Assembly (NCBI RefSeq): GCF_016900775.1
Contig: NZ_JACJKN010000002.1
Span: forward strand, 186,001-250,000
DNA from: Olsenella uli
GTDB taxonomy: Bacteria > Actinomycetota > Coriobacteriia > Coriobacteriales > Atopobiaceae
Length of the DNA: 64,000 bases
Reading direction: 5' to 3'
A program made the translations under genes and the position numbers. Of the stretch, positions 32,580 to 32,729 are shown one piece after another (the stretch's first letter is position 1; every line of letters starts with the position of its first letter). Below the pieces are notes generated by a model that was not told the origin of the DNA, did no database searches, and saw nothing but the letters and a program-made list of their open reading frames with translations.

Positions 32580-32729
32580 CCGGGTACGTACACGCCCCTC
32601 CCGGGTACGTACGCAATTTGAGGTCTGATACACCTTCCTCCCTGGAGAATTCGCAGGTGGGCGCGGTGGCGAGAAGAACATCAGGTCTGAAACCTCGTAC
32701 GTACCCGGGAGGGGCGTGTACGTACCCGG
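32580..32729. repeat. 34-bp perfect inverted repeat with 12-mer in the loop, upstream of gatC
   Basis: Arms 32580-32613 and 32696-32729 are exact reverse complements, built from GGGTACGTAC and CACGCCCCTCCC blocks. A third CGTACGTACCCGGGAG copy follows at 32738. The 82-base loop holds AGGTCTGA twice and an exact GGCGAGAAGAAC (32668-32679). It occupies most of the 407-base gap 32462-32868. No T-box features were seen. Confidence 0.85.

Follow-up and report, generated by a model that had tools for sequence, protein, structure and literature searches.

Within the window, the whole 64-kb stretch of DNA analysed here, the gatC gene (32869-33186, plus strand) is preceded by a TAGAAT (32837-32842, plus strand), whose conservation suggests a promoter role and which a promoter consensus scan did not pick up, and, further upstream, by a long inverted repeat. 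The initial annotation had described this repeat as a perfect 34-bp palindrome around an 82-base loop, and we verified that its arms (32580-32613 and 32696-32729) are exact reverse complements with 82 nt between them; a relaxed version spans 57 nt at 84% (32573-32629 and 32680-32736). The arms are built of a 12-bp unit, CCGGGTACGTAC, at 21-bp spacing, with two units on the left (starting at 32580 and 32601) and three on the right (starting at 32697, 32718 and 32739). The left outer unit (32580-32591), which reads GTACGTACCCGG on the minus strand, and the left inner unit 21 bp away (32601-32612) are both in minus orientation. The right arm, on the plus strand, consists of an inner unit (32697-32708), a second unit that closes the perfect 34-bp arm (32718-32729) and a third (32739-32750), which corresponds to the partial arm copy noticed earlier at about 32738. 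The single-stranded DNA fold of the repeat region reached -63.4 kcal/mol, far below the -34.5 of shuffled sequences (z -8.5), so that the repeat is not a chance product.

The core between the arms (about 84 nt, 32613-32696) carries, on the minus strand, conserved TGATGTTCTTCTCGCC ... CACCTGCG motifs, which are common to the copies of the element described below and to elements with other arms. On the plus strand it contains CGCAGGT (32652-32658), the complement of ACCTGCG, and GGCGAGAAGAAC (32668-32679); the latter, with an inverted copy at 32229-32240, is the exact 12-mer that we could identify for the one ascribed to the loop. GCGAGAAGRAC, which is also the motif conserved in the core of the element and is frequent in congeners, occurs at 25 sites in the 64-kb window against 0.17 expected, many of them intergenic and on both strands (658, 3201, 4045, 14163, 32229, 32669 and 51313 among them). 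It may serve as a target site or represent a genome motif of the uptake, Chi or REP kind. Nearby, a minus-strand ORF of 32 residues (32363-32461), predicted to be hydrophobic (MKKLVFIAVVAIAALAVILDDGRPRPRMYRHH), appears conserved upstream of gatC in many congeners, with a conserved block upstream of it that ends CTTTCGTAAGGTT. A 17-bp perfect inverted repeat with an 8-nt loop, TTTTGGGGTCATGGCAG, lies at 32251-32292, and TGGCAG repeats related to it cluster at 16745-16922, forming another palindromic repeat family.

A search for the arms in the window genome (G000, of the gut-bacterial genus Thermophilibacter) and in its relatives (G008, G015 and further codes) located seven more G000 sites, as well as sites in related species. 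The repeat before gatC is thus one of eight G000 copies of a dispersed element of about 170 bp (32580-32751 at gatC, no strand assigned), and the possibility that its arms are a common mobile repeat, which the initial annotation had set against its own reading, largely came true. The copies lie on C2 (gatC), C1 (two), C13 (two), C14, C46 and C64. Their plan comprises tandem 21-bp units CCGGGTACGTAC, a core of 83-85 nt with GTTCTTCTCG and CTACCTGCGG, and then inverted units; all eight have 1-3 units, core and 2-3 inverted units, with 91-93 bp between the inner palindromes. Alignment of copies from G000, G008 and G015 revealed an asymmetric conserved core, approximately TTGATGTTCTTCTCG-N11-CTACCTGCGG, in either genomic orientation, together with drifting spacers and a drifting second half of the core. 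Over 16 nt inside the arms, pairing within copies (5.96 of 16) was no better than pairing between copies (6.57 of 16), so that the extended stem is not the kept feature; the conserved parts are the GTACGTACCCGG units and the asymmetric core. A pattern scan of named genomes returned Thermophilibacter provencensis (NZ_LT671417) as the sole match from this lineage; ten further matches fell in unrelated taxa (soil actinomycetes, metagenome bins) and were taken as chance. Genes for cytosolic peptidases (M42, C1/PepC, M18 and M20/PepT-like) adjoin half of the G000 copies (C13:18.1k, C14:39.2k, C46:110.0k and C1:93.2k).

We compared the region upstream of gatC in 30 genomes of the genus. The block ending in TAGAAT and the gatC start were conserved in nearly all of these congeners, and the element was present only in G000, G008 and G015; the site was empty in G004 and G016, and occupied by different inverted repeats in G013/G014 and several others (e.g. 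G025, G003 and G030), so that the element is dispensable at gatC in other species. The intergenic spot before gatC is a hotspot, with inverted-repeat elements differing by species (L193, L195, L196, L207, L211, L202, L200). Since the orthologous place is occupied in the G008 and G015 assemblies, a misassembly, raised earlier as a possible explanation of the repeat, is unlikely. The right spacer is nearly identical in the three species, and the third right unit is an extra copy in the window species, being missing from G015 and G008. In G000 the left spacer (CGCCCCTC) complements the right one exactly, whereas it is mismatched in G015 (CCCTCCTT) and G008 (CCTTCCTC); the 34-bp perfection is therefore local to the window species, in which right-arm sequence has probably replaced that of the left spacer. 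The perfect stem had been read as a sign of recent origin or strong selection, and recency does apply to the perfect match, but not to the element itself, which predates the split from G008 and G015. Its placement in the leader of gatCAB is doubtful: the conserved promoter-like TAGAAT stands between the element and gatC, about 85 bp beyond the end of the element, which therefore probably lies outside the gatC mRNA. A special function in the gatCAB leader is not supported, given the arms at seven other G000 places and in related species.

Four relatives (G015, G008, G021 and G013) have one gene in common that lies between two copies of the element and encodes a previously undescribed partner protein of about 315 amino acids. 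Members of its closest clade (at least 55% identity) carry, at both flanks, elements of the same architecture with lineage-specific arms (GTACGTACCCGG, GTACATACCCTC, GTACGTACCCTG, GTACGTAACCGG, GTACACAACGC, GTACACGATGC, GCGCATAACC-type and others). When the upstream and downstream flanks of one gene were compared, with cross-gene pairs from unrelated genes as control, all 20 clade A genes shared flanks above the 95th percentile of the control and 19 of them above the 99th, and sharing was also found for 7/9 genes in other clades of the genus or family and for 8 of 13 G000 paralogs.

Arm type follows the clade of the partner gene, with dispersal mainly in genomes that hold the matching gene. 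The arm GAGGGTATGTACA reached 66, 52, 60 and 96 copies in G012, G017, G018 and G022, the holders of that gene clade, against 0-16 elsewhere and none in G000, G008 and G015; partner loss must be assumed in G001 and G009, which have GAGGGTATGTACA copies without a close partner gene. Across 13 arm types, read off by eye, the distances between arms and between proteins were correlated (Mantel r 0.35, p 0.007), a correlation to which shared ancestry contributes; by halves of the protein, the N-terminal one gave r 0.43 (p 0.0008) and the C-terminal one p 0.10.

The C-terminal domain of the partner is predicted to be a nuclease-like domain of PD-(D/E)XK/DUF559 type, similar to Vsr and EDxHD enzymes. 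REase_MTES_1575 matched at up to 8.5e-8, below the family cut-off, and DUF559 scored 20.7 bits in one paralog, against a Pfam cut-off of 20.6, and below it in the others. E182, D227 and E238 were invariant, and H245 and D254 were conserved in at least 90%. No NCBIfam family was matched by the protein, its N-terminal part had no match, and an AlphaFold model from the single sequence was unusable (pLDDT 36). A viral or plasmid origin was considered and rejected, with no viral contig or phage matches and a single 28% match, to a Collinsella plasmid record. Among PDB profiles, the C-terminal domain matched 3r3p ('Mobile intron protein', E 0.0028, profile positions 232-286), which we take to be the catalytic domain of the EDxHD homing endonuclease I-Bth0305I. 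Besides this profile, such Vsr-like enzymes would have in common with our system a site-recognising nuclease tied to mobile DNA; they differ in that the partner gene is, as far as seen, not in an intron or intein and is bracketed by repeats that are dispersed elsewhere too, and in the N-terminal part without match. The EDxHD homing endonuclease family has been described (PMC3943268).

The window genome itself lacks a close partner gene (best identity 33%), and for every one of its eight copies G008, G015 or both have an orthologous copy or locus, as expected after partner loss. At C64, G000 has a single element where G015 and G008 carry element, gene and element, and the sequences to the left and right of this element match those on the respective sides of the composite. 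This solo element could have arisen by deletion between the repeats or represent the pre-insertion state; the presence of seven other copies in G000 favours deletion. Three sites were used for an empty-site test, two of which were rearranged or unresolved and gave no information; a further copy common to G008 and G015 has an empty site in G000. Empty and occupied sites were compared between species and not between strains, so that empty sites may reflect deletion.

We propose, with a probability of roughly 0.6, that the gatC repeat is a copy of a small non-autonomous dispersed element with a dedicated nuclease-like partner, spread by the following mechanism. The N-terminal half of the partner would bind the 21-bp-spaced palindromic arms, two arm arrays would be brought together, the C-terminal Vsr/EDxHD-like PD-(D/E)XK domain would nick or cut at or near the core, and repair or recombination would place copies of the element at new intergenic positions, a dispersal akin to homing or to that of REPINs. 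The partner gene would also be lost through recombination between element copies, and the G000 elements would now be stranded passengers. The nuclease-like partner probably recognises the element and may spread it. The adjacency of four of the eight copies to peptidase genes is not predicted by mobility alone.

The main rival reading is that the partner is an autorepressor or regulator, resembling AbiEi-type antitoxins, and that the elements, the gatC copy included, are its operators. Palindromic sites at a spacing of two helical turns (21 bp), cytosolic peptidases beside 4/8 G000 copies, the many copies situated between genes and their upstream regions and the units kept at orthologous sites while spacers drift would all suit such a regulon. 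It is nevertheless unlikely, since elements occur downstream of the partner gene too, sites in sister species are empty or occupied by other elements, eight copies are kept in G000 without a cognate gene, and copy number runs from none to dozens within one genus. AbiEi, a type IV antitoxin, binds inverted repeats (PMC7319586) and is encoded beside them; here, repeats lie on both sides of the gene and at distant loci, and the partner protein had no AbiEi family match.

It is improbable that the elements are REP or REPIN sequences mobilised by a RAYT (Y1 tyrosine transposase) of the genome, with the nuclease as unrelated cargo. G000 does have five RAYT-like PF01797 genes, and the inverted doublets resemble REPINs, pairs of inverted REPs associated with RAYT genes (PMC3116915). 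None of the five is flanked by GTACGTAC, however, several having other flanking repeats, and the element flanks the nuclease gene instead, with matching arms in clade A. These PF01797 genes (L096-L100, on G000 C5, C24, C35, C8 and C2) include several with palindromic flank repeats of their own, e.g. GGGGACTGTCCCC and CACCTTTGTCAGG. The likeness between the two systems extends to short palindromic units in inverted doublets with a spacer, dispersed in extragenic DNA, to a dedicated trans-acting gene with the element at its flanks and to several families per genome; the differences are a partner of PD-(D/E)XK/DUF559-like rather than Y1 HUH transposase type, units in tandem 21-bp arrays, and a conserved, asymmetric core. 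A palindrome tagged at one end with GTAG or CGTC is given as a REPIN/RAYT criterion in PMC3733652; the arm consensus, GTACGTACCCGG and its variants, contained neither tag. By analogy, the system may work like REPIN/RAYT, but it is not one, as no RAYT-like gene in G000 is flanked by the element. MITEs are likewise small non-autonomous inverted-repeat elements that need an enzyme in trans; in contrast to them, our element has tandem variable arms, no transposase was found with it and no target duplication was defined.

A role in defence or self-marking, in which the nuclease would cut foreign DNA and the arrays would be protective or regulatory marks, fits the DUF559/PD-(D/E)XK domain and the roughly ten paralogs per genome, but is very improbable, as no PADLOC model was matched (best E 0.08), there were no phage homologs, and such a role does not account for whole elements on both sides of the gene. 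That the repeat regulates gatCAB as an RNA element (a leader hairpin or riboswitch), as its stable fold and its place upstream of gatC might suggest, is hardly credible, because no Rfam family exceeded its gathering score, the repeat lies upstream of the conserved TAGAAT and is missing in most congeners, the extended stem is not kept across copies (5.96 vs 6.57 of 16), and other copies lie near unrelated genes. The case also warns against taking an isolated hairpin before an essential operon for a riboswitch.

Returning to the nuclease-like partner, its family occurs in 129 of 140 family-level genomes, often with around ten members per genome, and in most genomes of a wider sample of the order; matches elsewhere in the phylum are mostly shorter and C-terminal. 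Flank sharing is weaker outside the genus (9/26 at order level). We tentatively suggest, as a possibility short of an even chance, an order-wide class of bacterial dispersed repeats: each genome would hold some ten paralogous nucleases of the PD-(D/E)XK (Vsr-like) type, each recognising and spreading its own palindromic repeat family. Literature searches found nothing joining DUF559, inverted repeats and endonuclease, nothing on REPs in Coriobacteriia or on intergenic inverted repeats in Olsenella, and nothing relevant for Collinsella. In bacteria, RAYT transposases are the usual explanation for dispersed palindromic repeats; here the partner is an enzyme of a different kind, and the class, if real, would parallel REPIN/RAYT with a nuclease that has no relation to HUH or DDE transposases. 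Because arms and protein change together, paralogous families are numerous within one genome and sister species show natural gain and loss, the origin and spread of such repeats become testable, and the system offers a natural set of protein-DNA specificity pairs.

The clade gene in G005 (C1:1253022-1253753) has an in-frame TGA beside arm units and is apparently a decaying partner gene, and at the G016 orthologue of the C13:18k site (C26:112.8k, L019) the core is deleted and the arms are merged.
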